This document shows positions 14,036-45,782 of a stretch of DNA of 46,957 nucleotides, piece after piece. The DNA is taken from assembly GCA_018240985.1 (NCBI GenBank), contig JAFEER010000264.1:1-46957 (forward strand). The letters are read 5' to 3'. Source of the DNA: Pseudomonadota bacterium. GTDB lineage: Bacteria > Pseudomonadota > Gammaproteobacteria > Burkholderiales > Burkholderiaceae_C. The position numbers and the translations under genes are program-made. A model generated the notes under the pieces. That model was not told the origin of the DNA and ran no database searches. It worked only from the letters and a program-made list of their open reading frames with translations. The number at the start of each line of letters is the position of its first letter. Position 1 is the first letter of the stretch.

Positions 14036-14110
14036 TGGAGCGGCCTGCGGGAGTCGAACCCGCATATAACAGCTTGGAAGGCTGTCGCCCAACCGATAGA
14101 CCAAGGCCGC
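14036..14110 (-). tRNA. tRNA-Gly(UCC)
   Basis: The cloverleaf reads from 14110 to 14036: acceptor GCGGCCT/AGGCCGC, anticodon stem ACAGC/GCTGT with loop CTTCCAA (anticodon UCC), T arm GCGGGTTCGACTCCCGC, discriminator U and encoded CCA. It appears intact. Confidence 0.92.
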
Positions 14111-14116
14111 CAGAAA

Positions 14117-14207
14117 TGGAGGAAGGAGCGAGATTCGAACTCGCGTGCCGCTTGCGCAGCCATCTGCTTTCGAGGCAGCGCCAATCAACCAGCTCTGGCA
14201 CCCTTTC
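14117..14207 (-). tRNA. tRNA-Ser(CGA), atypical
   Basis: A 91-nt class II tRNA with loop CTCGAAA (anticodon CGA), a long variable arm capped by GCAA, T arm GCGAGTTCGAATCTCGC and encoded CCA. Unusual features are an A-C mismatch at acceptor position 2-71 (GAAAGGG against TCCTTCC) and U at the discriminator, where Ser tRNAs normally have G. It may be decaying or poorly charged. Confidence 0.8.
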
Positions 14208-14211
14208 GAAT

Positions 14212-14303
14212 TGGCGGAGAGACAGGGATTCGAACCCTGGTGCCGCATCGCTGCGACCATCTGCTTTCCAAGCAGCGCCCATAGGCCTCTCGGGCATCTC
14301 TCC
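14212..14303 (-). tRNA. tRNA-Ser(GGA)
   Basis: A 92-nt class II tRNA: acceptor GGAGAGA/TCTCTCC, loop TTGGAAA (anticodon GGA), long variable arm, T arm CAGGGTTCGAATCCCTG, discriminator G and encoded CCA. It looks intact apart from a G-A pair at the top of the anticodon stem. Confidence 0.92.
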
Positions 14304-14311
14304 AGAAAAAG

Positions 14312-14401
14312 TGGCGGCAGGCGTGAGATTCGAACTCACGAACGGGCGGGCCCGTTTCCGGTGTTCAAGACCGGCGCGTTCAGCCGCTCCGCCAGCCTGC
14401 C
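14312..14401 (-). tRNA. tRNA-Ser(UGA)
   Basis: A 90-nt class II tRNA: acceptor GGCAGGC/GCCTGCC, anticodon stem CCGGT/ACCGG with loop CTTGAAC (anticodon UGA), long variable arm, T arm GTGAGTTCGAATCTCAC, discriminator G and encoded CCA. With its two neighbours it covers the whole UCN serine box. Confidence 0.93.
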
Positions 14402-15992: not shown

Positions 15993-16078
15993 TGGACGCG
16001 CAGGCGAGATTCGAACTCGCGAGTCAACAATGAACCGGACTTGCAAACCGGCGCCTTCAACCGCTTGGCTACTGCGCG
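15993..16078 (-). tRNA. tRNA-Cys(GCA)-like with class II variable arm
   Basis: 86 nt: acceptor CGCGCAG/CTGCGCG (7 bp), D arm GCCAAGCGGTTGAAGGC, anticodon stem CCGG/CCGG with centre TTGCAAG (anticodon GCA) and a T-T mismatch at 31-39, T arm GCGAGTTCGAATCTCGC, discriminator U and encoded CCA. Between the anticodon and T stems there are about 14 nt that can form a TCA/TGA mini-stem, so it has a long variable arm unlike normal tRNA-Cys. The body resembles the tRNA-Tyr of the same array. U73 and GCA suit CysRS. Confidence 0.8.
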
Positions 16079-16082
16079 AAAC

Positions 16083-16158
16083 TGGCTCCCCGAGCACGGA
16101 TCGAACGTGCGACATGCGCATTCACAGTGCGCCGCTCTACCAACTGGGCTATCGGGAA
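16083..16158 (-). tRNA. tRNA-His(GUG), lacking G-1:C73
   Basis: 76 nt: acceptor TTCCCGA/TCGGGGA, anticodon stem GCGCA/TGCGC with loop CTGTGAA (anticodon GUG), T arm GCACGTTCGATCCGTGC and encoded CCA. Position 73 is G and the preceding base is T, so the G-1:C73 pair that HisRS relies on is absent. The D stem has a C-A mismatch. It is recognisable, but its charging is doubtful. Confidence 0.82.
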
Positions 16159-16165
16159 ATGGGGG

Positions 16166-16237
16166 CGGGCCATGCTGGAATCGAACCAGCGCATGCCGGA
16201 ATCAAAATCCGGTGCCGTACCGCTTGGCGAATGGCCT
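16166..16237 (-). tRNA. tRNA-Gln(UUG), no encoded CCA
   Basis: 72 nt: acceptor AGGCCAT/ATGGCCC with an A-C mismatch at position 1-72, D arm GCCAAGCGGTACGGC, anticodon stem CCGGA/TCCGG with loop TTTTGAT (anticodon UUG), T arm GCTGGTTCGATTCCAGC and discriminator G. The 3' end continues CCC rather than CCA. The weak 1-72 pair suits GlnRS, but the CCA would have to be added by nucleotidyltransferase. Confidence 0.85.
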
Positions 16238-16245
16238 GTGAGAAA

Positions 16246-16332
16246 TGGTGGAGGCGGATGGATTCGAACCACCGTGTCCTTGTGGGAACCAGATTTACAG
16301 TCTGGCGCGATCAACCGCTCTGCCACACCTCC
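16246..16332 (-). tRNA. tRNA-Tyr(GUA)
   Basis: An 87-nt class II tRNA: acceptor GGAGGTG/CGCCTCC, anticodon stem CCAGA/TCTGG with loop CTGTAAA (anticodon GUA), a moderate variable arm (TCC...GGA), T arm around GTTCGAATC, discriminator A and encoded CCA. It appears intact. Confidence 0.92.
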
Positions 16333-16340
16333 GAGAAAAA

Positions 16341-16416
16341 TGGTCGCTGCAGCAGGGTTTGAACCTGCGCGCCCCGCCTTATGAGGGCGGTGCTCTACCA
16401 GCTGAGCTATGCAGCG
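16341..16416 (-). tRNA. tRNA-Met(CAU), elongator type
   Basis: 76 nt: acceptor CGCTGCA/TGCAGCG, D arm GCTCAGCTGGTAGAGC, anticodon stem CCGCC/GGCGG with loop CTCATAA (anticodon CAU), T arm GCAGGTTCAAACCCTGC, discriminator A and encoded CCA. The paired 1-72 ends and the D arm indicate elongator Met rather than initiator. Ile2 (lysidine-modified CAU) cannot be fully excluded. Confidence 0.88.
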
Positions 16417-16418
16417 TC

Positions 16419-16493
16419 TGGTGCTCGATACGGGAGTCGAACCCGTCTTTGCTGGGTGAAAACCAGCGGCCCTGACCGATAGACGAACCGAGC
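16419..16493 (-). tRNA. tRNA-Glu(UUC)
   Basis: 75 nt: acceptor GCTCGGT/ATCGAGC, anticodon stem GCTGG/CCAGC with loop TTTTCAC (anticodon UUC), T arm ACGGGTTCGACTCCCGT, discriminator A and encoded CCA. It appears intact and is the first complete tRNA of the array in transcription order. Confidence 0.9.
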
Positions 16494-35575: not shown

Positions 35576-35603
35576 TGGTCGGCGTGGCGGGATTCGAACT
35601 CGC
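35576..35603 (-). repeat. attR: 28-bp copy at the intact tRNA-Pro 3' end
   Basis: Identical to 16820-16847. It is the end of the complete tRNA-Pro gene, so this side keeps the functional tRNA. Confidence 0.92.
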
Positions 35604-35652
35604 GACCCCTTGCACCCCATGCAAGTGCGCTACCAGGCTGCGCTACACGCCG
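35576..35652 (-). tRNA. tRNA-Pro(GGG)
   Basis: 77 nt: acceptor CGGCGTG/CACGCCG, D arm with GCCTGGTAG, anticodon stem CTTGC/GCAAG with loop ATGGGGT (anticodon GGG), T arm GCGAGTTCGAATCCCGC, discriminator A and encoded CCA. It is the integration site of the island; its 3' 28 bp are duplicated at 16820. Confidence 0.96.
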
Positions 35653-39336: not shown

Positions 39337-40479
<1,143 letters not shown>

Positions 40480-41887: not shown

Positions 41888-41913
41888 AAAAAAAAGCTAC
41901 GAAAAGCGTAGCT
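41888..41913 (-). terminator. Terminator-like hairpin in the thrS-infC spacer
   Basis: On the minus strand AGCTACG pairs with CGTAGCT around CTTTT, followed by T8, only 18 bp before the infC start. It may partly separate thrS from infC or act as a regulated attenuator. Confidence 0.8.
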
Positions 41914-41959: not shown

Positions 41960-43879
41960 TCAGGCTTTGGAGGCGATGTCCTGTGCGATCAATTCGACAA
42001 AGGCGTCGATGGACATCACACCCAGGTCTTTGTTGCCCCGGGCGCGCACTGCCACCGCTCCAGCAGCCTTTTCCTTGTCGCCGGCGACGAGGATATAGGG
42101 CTGCTTTTGCAGCGCATGCTCGCGTATTTTATACGTGATCTTCTCGTTGCGCAGATCCGTCACCACTCTAAGGGATTGATGCGGCAGCGCTTTTTGCAAT
42201 TTTTCAGCAATTTCGCGACAGTAGTCCTGCTGCGCGTCGGTGATGTTGAGCACCGCCACCTGCAGCGGCGCCAGCCACACCGGCAGCGCGCCAGCGTGCT
42301 GCTCGACCAAGATGCCGATGAAGCGCTCCAGACTGCCAACGATGGCGCGGTGCAGCATCACCGGGCGGTGGCGGTTGCCATCCTCGCCCACGTATTCGGC
42401 GTCCAGGCGCTCGGGCATGGAGAAGTCCACTTGAATGGTGCCGCACTGCCAGTGCCGGCCAATCGCATCTTTGAGCGTGTACTCGATCTTGGGGCCGTAG
42501 AACGCGCCCTCGCCGGGCGAGATTTCAAACGCGCAGCCCGAGGCCTCCAGACTGTGGATCAGCGCCGCCTCGGCCTTGTCCCAGCTCTCGTCCGAGCCGA
42601 TGCGCGCCTCGGGGCGGGTGGCCACTTTGTAAATGATGTCGGTGAAGCCGAAGTCGGCGTAGACCTTCTGCAGCAGGTGCGTAAAAGCCAGCACCTCGGG
42701 CTGGATCTGCTCCTCGGTGCAAAAAATGTGGCCGTCATCCTGCGTGAAGCCGCGCACGCGCATGATGCCGTGCAGGCCGCCGGTAGGTTCGTTGCGGTGG
42801 CATTGGCCGAACTCGCCGTAGCGCAGCGGCAGGTCACGGTAGCTCTTGATGCCCTGCTTGAAGATCAGGATATGGCCGGGGCAGTTCATCGGCTTGAGCG
42901 CGTAGTCGCGCTTCTCGCTCTCGGTAATGAACATGTTCTCGCGGTACTTGTCCCAGTGGCCGGTCTTTTCCCACAGGGTTTTGTCCAGAATCTGCGGCCC
43001 CTTCACTTCCTGGTAGCCGTTGTCCTGGTAGACGCGGCGCATGTACTGCTCGACCTGCTGCCACAGCGTCCAGCCCTTGGGGTGCCAGAACACGGTGCCG
43101 GGCGAATGTTCGTCGATGTGGAACAGATCGAGTTCACGCCCGAGCTTGCGGTGGTCGCGCTTTTCGGCCTCTTCGAGCATGTGCAGGTAGTTCTGCAGCT
43201 CGTCCTTGGTCGCCCAGGCCGTACCGTAGACGCGCTGCAGCATCTCGTTGCGGTGGTCGCCGCGCCAGTAGGCGCCGGCCACCTTCATCAGCTTGAAGTG
43301 TTTGAGCTTGCCGGTGCTGGGCACGTGCGGGCCGCGGCACAGGTCTTCAAAAGCACCCTCCCGGTACAGGCTCACATCCTCGTTGCTCGGGATGCTGGCG
43401 ATGATCTCGGCCTTGTAGTGCTCACCAATGCCTTTGAAGTACGCGACAGCCTCGTCGCGCGGCAGCACGCGGCGCACCACGGGCTCATCCTTGGCGGCAA
43501 GCTCGGCCATGCGCTTTTCTATCGCCGCCAGGTCTTCGGGCGTGAACGGGCGTTTGTACGAAAAATCGTAATAGAAGCCGTTTTCGATCACCGGGCCGAT
43601 GGTCACCTGAGCATCGGGGAACAGCTCTTTCACGGCATACGCCAGCAGGTGGGCGGTGGAGTGGCGGATCACCTCCAGGCCATCGGCGTCCTTGGCGGTG
43701 ATGATGGACAGCGGGCTGTCGGCGGTGATCTGGTAGCTGGTATCCACCACCTTGTCGCCGATCTTGCCGGCGAGCGCCGCCTTGGCCAGGCCCGAGCCGA
43801 TCGAGGCCGCCACCTCGGCCACCGTCACCGGGCCGGGAAATTCACGTTGCGAACCATCGGGAAGCGAAATTTGAAGCAT
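41960..43879 (-). CDS. thrS: Threonyl-tRNA synthetase
   Basis: 639-aa class II synthetase that charges tRNA-Thr. In order there are an N-terminal TGS domain ([20 protein letters not shown]), the editing domain with [16 protein letters not shown], the catalytic core ([38 protein letters not shown] written with R/I order [11 protein letters not shown]) and the anticodon-binding domain ([16 protein letters not shown]). I chose ATG 43879, the start of the TGS domain, preceded by AAGGA. Upstream is an apparent attenuator with a Thr-rich leader peptide. It heads the thrS-infC-rpmI-rplT-pheS-pheT-ihfA operon. Confidence 0.96.
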
Positions 43880-43929
43880 CTGTGCAAATCCTTGTTCAAC
43901 TGTATGGGTGGTGGCGCGCTCCCGGCCCA

Positions 43930-43961
43930 AAAACAAAAAGCGCGGAACACAGTCCGCGCTT
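43930..43961 (-). terminator. Attenuator terminator upstream of thrS
   Basis: On the minus strand AAGCGCGGA (plus 43953-43961) pairs with TCCGCGCTT (plus 43938-43946) over CTGTGT, followed by TTTGTTTTT. The first strand can instead pair with GTTCGCGC (43992-43999) as an antiterminator. It lies about 50 bp before the thrS ATG. Confidence 0.85.
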
Positions 43962-44007
43962 GAAGGGGGGGGTGAGAAGGCTCTCGTGCAGGCGCGAACG
44001 GCCAGCC

Positions 44008-44058
44008 TTAGCGGCTGGTGAGGGTCTCCGTCGTAGTTCGCGGTGTCATAACCGACAT
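44008..44058 (-). CDS. Threonine-rich leader peptide of thrS
   Basis: 16-residue frame ATG...TAA encoding [16 protein letters not shown], with six Thr codons (ACA, ACT, ACG, ACG, ACC, ACC). An AAAGG site precedes the ATG. Codons 6-8 contain CGCGAAC (44036-44042), which can pair with GTTCGCG (43993-43999). That segment can alternatively pair with the first arm of the terminator at 43930-43961. This is the layout of ribosome-mediated attenuation: scarce Thr-tRNA stalls the ribosome on the Thr codons, frees the second segment and allows the antiterminator. It would raise thrS when charged tRNA-Thr is low. Structure is read from sequence; regulation is inferred. Confidence 0.75.
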
Positions 44059-44318
44059 TGCCTTTCTCGCCCTTGAATGGTTTGTGGGATTGGATAGCCG
44101 TCGATTCTATCGTTTTTGCGCCGGCTGCGGCCTGGGCGGCGGTTGATCGGCGGCGAGTTCACGTTCACTTTGCCGTGAACGCCTCGCTCCACGTCGTCGA
44201 AATGCGCGCCCTTGCAGTACCAGCGAGTACCAGCGCCGCGGCATCGGTGAACAGCGATCGCTCCGGCCACGACGCGGTGTCGGCCACCCGGTGGCAGCAG
44301 GCGCCGGCCAGCGCAGCA

Positions 44319-45782
44319 TCAGGGAGCAATGAAGCCCGACTTGTCGCAGTTGAGCGCGTAGCCTTCCTGCAGGCAGGTGGCCAGCAACTTGCCCGCTGCC
44401 GTGTAGGCCTCGAAGCTCCAGCCCTTCGAAGGCTGGGGGCGGCGCTCCATCAACAGGAAGCCAAAGCTCGCGTGGTGCGCAATCTGGTCGATCACCGCGC
44501 CGGGCGCGGGCGTAGCGCCGCTGGGCAGCGGATCGGGCAGGGCTACGTCCAGGTTGTCGCCGGCGGTGCCGCTGACCAGCGTGGCCGTCTGCCCCGTCTT
44601 GAAGCTGATGGCCTGAAAATTGTGCACGTGGCCGTGCAGCGCCAGATTCACGCCCGGCGGGTAATAAGCCTGGGCATACAGGCCGCTCATGGCCGACTGC
44701 AGCGCCAGGTTGCCGGGCGCCGGTGCCGAGCCTGCGACGGGTGCGAAGGCCAGGATGGGGTGGTGGTTGGTGAAGATGGTATTGGCCAGGCCCGACTGGG
44801 ATGCCATGCTGGCCACCTGCTGGAACTGCTTCTGGTAGATGGCGAACTGCGCGTCGGAGGGCTTGAGCGCTACCTTGCCCGTCTTGGCCGAATCGAACAC
44901 CACCACCTGCGTGTCGCGGCCCAGGCGCACGGCATATGGGTCGCTGTAATTGGCCGTGCCGTCGTTGGCCGCGTCGTCGCACGAGCGTGCCGCGCTGAAC
45001 GGCTGCGTGTCGAGGAAACGGAACCAGCCCTGCCCGGCGCGGGCACATTCCTCGTGGTTGCCGCGCACCATGACCCAGGGCGCGGACGCGAGCAGGCTCG
45101 CAGCGGGTTTGAACAGGTCGGCCTGCCACGTATCCCAGCCATAGCCCCAGGGGCTGCCCTGGCAGCCGGCGATGTCGGCCGGGCATGCGTTCTCGCGGTA
45201 GTGGTAGTCGCCCACATGCAGCACCAGGTCAGGCTTGAAGCCGGCCGCCGCGGCGGACACCTTGGCGAACTGCCAGGCCTCGCCGTCGGTGCACGGCTGC
45301 CAGGCGTTGTCGGCCTTCTTGAGGCGGCAGCCACTGTCGCCCAGCACGATGATGCGCTGCGGCTCGGCCTTGGGCAGCGGCAGTGCCTGCCCGGCAACGG
45401 ACACACTCGCCGCCGTGGCCGGCACGGCCTGCTCGCACACGGAGACGGGGAACTGCGAAGGCTTGGAATCCGCAGGGGCGCTGGCCGTGGGGCGCAGCGC
45501 CGCCGTGCCGGGCCCCACGCGCAGCGCCATGCGCGTTGTCTGGCCGTCGATCGCGATCAGCGGGCAGGCTGCATTGGCCACCGTGGCGGCTGCAGGCGCA
45601 TAGGAAGTGACGACGCGGGCGATCGCCTGGTTCTGCGCCCCGACCACTACCCAGGCCGCCTTGATATAGGTGGCGTTGCTGGCGTCGTCGCCATCCGAGC
45701 CGCCGCAGCCATGCAGGGCCAGCACTGCAGCCCCCGTCGCCACCCCCGCACCCATCCACATGACATTGCGCCGCATGATCAT
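44319..45782 (-). CDS. Exported calcineurin-like metallophosphoesterase (probable lipoprotein)
   Basis: 487-aa exported phosphoesterase. The signal peptide MIMRRNVMWMGAGVATG... ends in LALHGC, a lipobox-like site with Cys near residue 26, followed by a Gly/Asp-rich linker. The binuclear metal motifs are all present: IVLGDSG near 146, LHVGDYHYR near 190, VMVRGNHEEC near 240, TNHHPILAF near 343 and ALHGHVHNF near 395. The substrate is unknown; it resembles purple-acid-type phosphatases only in the fold. The ATG at 45782 has GAGGG 8 bp upstream. The 216-bp gap to the thrS leader holds no further gene that I can support. Confidence 0.87.
   Translation of the reverse strand: MIMRRNVMWMGAGVATGAAVLALHGCGGSDGDDASNATYIKAAWVVVGAQNQAIARVVTSYAPAAATVANAACPLIAIDGQTTRMALRVGPGTAALRPTASAPADSKPSQFPVSVCEQAVPATAASVSVAGQALPLPKAEPQRIIVLGDSGCRLKKADNAWQPCTDGEAWQFAKVSAAAAGFKPDLVLHVGDYHYRENACPADIAGCQGSPWGYGWDTWQADLFKPAASLLASAPWVMVRGNHEECARAGQGWFRFLDTQPFSAARSCDDAANDGTANYSDPYAVRLGRDTQVVVFDSAKTGKVALKPSDAQFAIYQKQFQQVASMASQSGLANTIFTNHHPILAFAPVAGSAPAPGNLALQSAMSGLYAQAYYPPGVNLALHGHVHNFQAISFKTGQTATLVSGTAGDNLDVALPDPLPSGATPAPGAVIDQIAHHASFGFLLMERRPQPSKGWSFEAYTAAGKLLATCLQEGYALNCDKSGFIAP

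Follow-up and report, generated by a model that had tools for sequence, protein, structure and literature searches.

The thrS gene in the window (the whole stretch of 46,957 nucleotides analyzed here) is very probably controlled by a ribosome-mediated transcription attenuator that senses the charging of threonyl-tRNA. As judged from the sequence and its comparison with related genomes, the leader frame, its enrichment in Thr codons, a promoter-like hexamer, a hairpin at the leader stop codon, a terminator and the link to thrS are established; from this arrangement, we infer the transcription start, the stalling of the ribosome, the switch to pairing between segments 2 and 3 (2:3) and the direction of control. 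The leader and the terminator are well supported and the exact switch moderately so. The components of the locus are the following.

44104 to 44109, minus strand: probable -10 hexamer TAGAAT, recognized by the clustering of TANAAT upstream of the leader ATGs in relatives
44061 to 44068, minus strand: probable leader ribosome-binding site GAGAAAGG, almost invariant in alignment A1
44036 to 44053, minus strand: 18-nt box GGTTATGACACCGCGAAC spanning the leader start, present in a single copy per carrying genome with thrS downstream
44008 to 44049, minus strand: 13-codon leader frame with a TAA stop, conserved together with the terminator and with frame-specific Thr codons
44036 to 44042, minus strand: segment 1, CGCGAAC, within leader codons 3-5, pairing with segment 2 in A1
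44002 to 44018, minus strand: stop-codon hairpin CCAGCC-GCTAA-GGCTGG, with two-sided pair changes in A1
43992 to 43999, minus strand: segment 2, GTTCGCGC, complementary to segments 1 and 3
43952 to 43959, minus strand: segment 3, GCGCGGAC, part of the 5' arm of the terminator, involved in the 2:3 pairing
43938 to 43961, minus strand: terminator hairpin (3:4), identified by terminator scan and A1 pair changes, predicted at -14.6 kcal/mol
43928 to 43937, minus strand: T-rich tail TTTGTTTTTG after the terminator, identified by terminator scan
41960 to 43879, minus strand: thrS, the regulated gene (TIGR00418, 721.7 bits against a cut-off of 383.65)
41895 to 41913, minus strand: hairpin AGCTACG-CTTTT-CGTAGCT with a long T-run, in the gap between thrS and infC

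Under the proposed mechanism, the RNA would begin roughly 40-50 nt ahead of the 13-codon leader. With charged Thr-tRNA in short supply, stalling at Thr codons (2, 5, 6, 7 or later) would place the ribosome over segment 1; segment 2 would pair with segment 3 in the terminator's 5' arm, and transcription by RNA polymerase would continue into thrS. With adequate charging, the leader would be completed and the ribosome would depart, upon which segments 1 and 2 and the stop hairpin would form one long stem; segment 3 would then be free, and the terminator would stop transcription.

The leader frame and its conservation

The initial annotation had placed the four segments, the stop hairpin and the terminator where we find them, on the minus strand, and had described a leader of 16 codons with six Thr codons. 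The frame that opens at 44058 does have this length and composition, and the leader itself stands; its start probably does not. An in-frame ATG equivalent to 44058, nine bases upstream, is present in 20 of the 161 distinct strict leaders (8 of the 41 in the closest group), and in most loci AAGG is located 10 or 11 nt before the second leader ATG, the 44049 type (98 and 56 loci, respectively). Because ATG 44049 is the start that aligns in the relatives and the ATG at 44058 is rarely present there, the true leader probably comprises the 13 codons from 44049 to 44008, with all six Thr codons retained.

Leader and terminator precede thrS in 110 of the 130 examined genomes of the same family, including 108 with strict MTPRT-type leaders and two with looser ones. 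This set, which contains the genome of the window, comprises the 30 best and 100 further listed matches; 195 of the 200 genomes searched had a thrS match. A terminator was required for this count, and a locus with a strict leader in which no terminator was found (L039) was scored as a miss. Among the named contigs, taken as the best 80 of at least 576 and thus biased to close relatives, 34 carry a strict leader with a terminator and 15 a looser one; the genera represented are Comamonas, Acidovorax, Rhodoferax, Roseateles, Massilia, Ralstonia, Cupriavidus, Burkholderia, Aquitalea and Azoarcus.

When up to one mismatch was allowed, the 18-nt box was detected in 46 of the 399 genomes of the order, in one copy each, compared to a single match, in one genome, for the reversed-pattern control. 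The gene downstream of the box is thrS in all 46 genomes (30 of the 30 fetched loci and then the remaining 16 of 16). Five of these 30 box loci, the window and four family genomes, were omitted from the pooled set as already present; the pooled sets overlap in genomes, as with L019 and L043, and the pooled counts are therefore not independent. The order-wide listing covered 109 thrS loci, with a match present in 129 genomes. A Thr-rich frame (8-20 codons, at least 30% Thr, at least three Thr, no more than 320 nt upstream of thrS) was identified in 14 of the 106 order genomes outside the family, with 0.3 expected from shuffles and none found on the opposite strand; these 14 genomes represent 9 of the 45 families, and the other 92 genomes fail the same criterion. 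The initial annotation had named a lack of conserved Thr codons in related genomes as one outcome that would speak against an attenuator. This is contradicted by the conservation of Thr-rich frames upstream of thrS in the family and beyond it, and the arrangement is, on this comparative evidence, kept in many related bacteria.

The leader also carries a clear coding signal. After codon 5, AC-type codons account for 321 of the 1342 in-frame codons in the 154 distinct strict leaders, versus 11 and 50 of 1188, respectively, in the two alternative frames, and the third position of the in-frame Thr codons is variable (ACC 163, ACG 82, ACA 46, ACT 30). Thr is the most common residue after codon 5 in the window's family (312 of 1254). 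It occupies codon 6 in 108 and codon 7 in 80 of the 154 strict leaders, codon 5 in all 154 and codon 2 in 152, the latter two figures being for the most part demanded by the design of the search. Indeed, the strict search presets most of the first and second positions of codons 2-5, so that only the third positions there are independent evidence. Codon 2 ends in A in 153 of the 154 leaders, codon 3 in G in all 154 and codon 4 in A in 148; the later third positions are free. Conservation of the first leader codons beyond coding need is a puzzle. In a group of loci (L244-L248 and L251-L256), the box and MTPRT are retained but few Thr codons follow in the leader, so the sensor in these loci may consist of codons 2 and 5.

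Upstream of the leader, TANAAT yields 123 hits in 164 loci, of which 87 start 45-54 nt before the leader ATG; the chance expectation is 9.1 hits over the whole 110 nt. Strict promoter scans of the window detected no promoter. The conserved promoter-like hexamer, as a sequence feature, argues against transcription of thrS starting downstream of 43930, another outcome that had been named as adverse to the attenuator. Taken with the conserved leader, its Thr codons and the terminator, the hexamer supports the original assignment of a Thr leader-peptide attenuator to thrS.

No leader was found in 20 of the 130 family genomes examined. In 15 of these 20, a hairpin with a T-run is located within the last 97 nt before thrS; in three of them (L022, L024 and L193), two hairpins are visible and the one recorded is farther from thrS, and in L175, the hairpin is of another kind. 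Several leaderless relatives (L124, L129, L143, L181 and L206) have a GC-rich hairpin with a T-run close to the thrS start. The hairpin in the leaderless relatives may serve a separate purpose, for example, as a stabilizer of the 5' end. In five relatives (L088, L090, L091, L100 and L105), a gene for tRNA-Val (anticodon GAC) lies directly upstream of the thrS leader region, and in these the hairpin may also end the tRNA transcript.

RNA pairing and the predicted switch

The 151 nt around the leader are predicted to fold more stably than most shuffled versions (z = -2.37; equally stable shuffles 3 of 200). A simple terminator scan of 43500-44500 returned two sites against 1.2 expected, so the count itself is not significant; the leader terminator is the stronger of the two (nine pairs versus five) and is also conserved.

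Within alignment A1, which consists of 41 group-A sequences, 93.3% of the cells in the 1:2 stem, the stop hairpin and the terminator are paired, and 12 of the 22 pairs changed on both sides, compared to a shuffle mean of 4.5 (0 of 500 shuffles reach 12). Such two-sided changes are found in all six pairs of the stop hairpin, with 85.5% of the cells paired, and in six of the nine pairs of the terminator. The 1:2 stem, in which 98.3% of the cells are paired, has zero compensatory changes; the 2:3 pairing (92.9% of the cells) has one two-sided change, which is matched by 79 of 500 shuffles and does not amount to covariation. Of the compensatory changes that the initial annotation had suggested looking for in segments 1-4, those in the terminator, along with those in the stop hairpin, were borne out, and those in 1:2 and 2:3 were not. 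A complete lack of compensatory changes, which it had named as a further adverse outcome, is contradicted by these findings. Near-invariance of 1:2 and 2:3 would be expected for a segment with two partners, yet it is not evidence for such an arrangement. The wiring through 1:2 and 2:3 is no more than plausible.

Comparison between lineages gave mixed results for the 2:3 pairing. Segment 2 and the 5' arm of the terminator differ in sequence between lineages, most strikingly in Ralstonia and Burkholderia. In the lineage matrix, to which 116 of the 184 loci could be assigned, the lineage's own 2:3 pair is energetically the best in four of the nine lineages, and own partners are hardly better than swapped ones (-14.54 versus -13.89 kcal/mol). 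As a test of covariation in 1:2 and 2:3, partner swapping is weak, given how little these sequences vary. Compared with dinucleotide shuffles of the 184 loci, 43 are in the best 5% and 150 in the better half, with the window at 7%. Duplicate leader-to-terminator sequences were removed in the partner-swap and dinucleotide-shuffle tests as well as in the spacer-shuffle test described below. Direct pairing of segment 1 with segment 3 (CCGCG with CGCGG) also beats shuffles; it was provisionally set aside, as the CGCG core is palindromic and the resulting direction of control would be wrong.

The switch itself can be explored by structure prediction. For the window, the predicted upstream pairing of the 5' arm of the terminator is 0.87 if a ribosome is stalled with codon 2, 5 or 7 in its A site, and 0.07 or 0.28 if no ribosome is present, depending on the 5' start chosen for the RNA. 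In 99 of 183 loci (30 of 41 in group A, 18 of 24 in group B, 4 of 19 in group C and 47 of 99 others), the value predicted for the stalled state is more than 0.2 above that for the free state, and the opposite is predicted in four (none in group A, one in B, two in C and one among the others). Shuffling of the spacer lowers the mean stalled value from 0.736 to 0.630 only, with 114 of the 139 loci above their own control. With the ribosome on the stop codon, 2:3 is still predicted, at 0.83 for a 12-nt footprint or 0.40 for a 16-nt footprint, that is, there is no clear block. Since 2:3 would be possible in this state, termination under plenty would depend on release of the ribosome and refolding into 1:2, a requirement that would distinguish the thrS leader from the textbook trp case. 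For a putative, mutually exclusive antiterminator formed by 2:3 and governed through segment 1, complementarity and a predicted switch are present; covariation is absent and the cross-lineage tests are mixed.

Alternative explanations and related systems

The strict conservation of the leader start invites other readings. One that we consider a realistic if tentative possibility is that the first codons are the essential sensor, with Thr codons 2 and 5 of MTPRT flanking segment 1, and that the subsequent Thr codons and the wiring through segment 2 were added in particular lineages, the four-segment scheme being one of several local solutions. The box is retained in families with few further Thr codons in the leader, for example, MTPRTWKFTEIRR and MTPRTCFYAKSNKVASIP, and the near-universal Thr at codons 5 and 2 (largely by search design) compares with only 80 leaders that have Thr at codon 7, all of which fits such a sensor, but the prevalence of Thr after codon 5 in the window's family suggests selection for more than two Thr codons. 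It is unlikely, in our estimate, that the box is a fixed 18-nt module in which the initiation site, segment 1 and a Thr sensor formed by codons 2 and 5 coincide, retained across families with differing downstream wiring, and that the terminated RNA or the nascent MTPRT peptide would have a further function, such as action in trans or binding of ThrRS. The fixed third positions of codons 2, 3 and 4, followed by free ones, and the sharing of the box by families with different spacers would also be compatible with a terminated leader RNA that acts in trans or with a factor bound to the box; we consider this quite improbable as the explanation of the extreme conservation, since the combined roles of the box in initiation, as Thr codons and as segment 1 may already account for it.

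A ThrRS-binding operator of the E. coli kind, exerting translational control through a hairpin near the thrS start, with the leader being incidental, appears very improbable, even though ThrRS autoregulation in E. coli is named in a report that also discusses leader peptides and hisS (PMC2965389). In many loci the hairpin is indeed located 16-25 nt from the thrS start, and 15 of the 20 leaderless family genomes retain a hairpin with a T-run near thrS. Against this, the loop is variable in both size and sequence, the hairpin is found at widely differing distances from thrS, and a conserved Thr-rich frame would be unexpected. Nor does the loop resemble an anticodon: among 155 distinct terminator hairpins, the only hairpins to which this comparison applies, none has a 7-nt loop with NGU in the anticodon position (positions 3-5), and NGU occurs anywhere in 45 loops. 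Practically negligible is the notion of a chance reading frame before an ordinary 5' hairpin, of the sort seen without a leader in the leaderless relatives: the Thr codons are frame-specific, the Thr-rich frames in other families exceed expectation (14 versus 0.3), the association of the box with thrS holds in 46 of 46 genomes, and the conservation data, as far as sequences can tell, already contradict it.

We therefore retain a leader-peptide attenuator as the preferred reading and compare it with known systems. In E. coli, thrS is the textbook case of translational autoregulation, and in Firmicutes, thrS is under T-boxes. Both share with the present locus the target gene and the physiological aim and differ from it in mechanism: the Rfam T-box model is unmatched in the window and in 43850-44150 (E up to 10), and there is no anticodon-like hairpin loop. 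The Rfam Thr leader, presumably RF00506, is likewise absent from the 11 Rfam matches in the window and from the five matches (E up to 10) in 43850-44150. The best weak Rfam match at the site, suhB (E 0.16, 18.3 bits versus a cut-off of 41), was taken as chance. A GGU-like stretch before the leader start, CTGGTTA, noticed by eye, was also dismissed: A1 shows no conservation of the stem that flanks it, and GGTT is replaced by CGTT in 16 genomes.

The attenuators of the thr, trp, his and phe operons of enterobacteria, with pheM before pheST, combine a leader rich in cognate codons, alternative hairpins and an intrinsic terminator. The thrS leader has these elements in common with them and differs in the genes concerned, in that the Rfam Thr leader model finds no match, and in that segment 2 is not clearly covered when the ribosome has reached the stop codon. 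The features of the attenuator class that are found here are a leader frame with a ribosome site between the hexamer-inferred promoter and the gene, enrichment in cognate codons, an intrinsic terminator between leader and gene, and a gene, thrS, for the same amino acid; codon-specific stalling and a response to charging would, according to the model, follow.

Leader peptides before aminoacyl-tRNA synthetase genes, including thrS of Streptomyces, have been proposed earlier, and attenuation itself is a known kind of control. The peptide proposed for thrS of Streptomyces lividans (thrL) resembles the present case in its position before thrS and differs, as described there, in having 18 residues (MKRVRPFLETTPGFVPAR) with two Thr, a leaderless start and no clear terminator; its sequence does not resemble MTPRT (PMC8079986). 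In the Rhodobacterales, the cysS uORFC-8-2 motif, interpreted by its authors as ribosome-mediated attenuation, is likewise a leader with cognate codons before an aminoacyl-tRNA synthetase gene; it differs in concerning Cys and cysS in alpha-proteobacteria, where codons 14 and 15 form a tandem Cys pair (PMC8632094). The relevant portions of three further reports contain nothing on a thrS leader peptide (PMC11109978, PMC6429828, PMC2330054). Among the open-access papers searched, we recognized no description of a beta-proteobacterial thrS leader peptide; supplements and subscription papers may hold an earlier one. If the attenuator is real, it would represent a third solution for the control of thrS, namely leader-peptide attenuation conserved across much of a bacterial order, and would imply that the control of one essential gene was replaced wholesale. 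It would also offer a ready-made sensor for the charging of threonyl-tRNA, available in many natural variants, among them lineages that have apparently lost the leader but retained a hairpin.

Genes downstream of thrS

In the window, thrS is followed by infC, rpmI, rplT, pheS, pheT and then the gene for integration host factor alpha. The initial annotation had suggested that infC, L35, L20, pheST and ihfA would be tied to threonyl-tRNA charging through the attenuator; this part of the proposal is not supported. The genes are present in this order, but the hairpin with the long T-run at 41895-41913 is located between thrS and infC. Extension of Thr control to infC in the window's genome looks, on the evidence of this sequence, doubtful. 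A strict search of the thrS-infC gap (perfect stem, at least six T in eight) identified a site in 3 of 80 named relatives, and at the thrS-infC junction of 30 loci, of which 29 were readable, a similar hairpin with a shorter T-run is present in several close relatives.

The gap between rplT and pheS (40401-40441, minus strand) contains a strong hairpin, AAGGGCTAG...CTAGCCCTT, followed by GTTTTATTT, just before pheS, which is possibly a second terminator or attenuator. Elsewhere in the window, ten tRNA genes are arranged in two clusters (14039-14401 and 15996-16493, minus strand), and an eleventh is located at 35579-35652.
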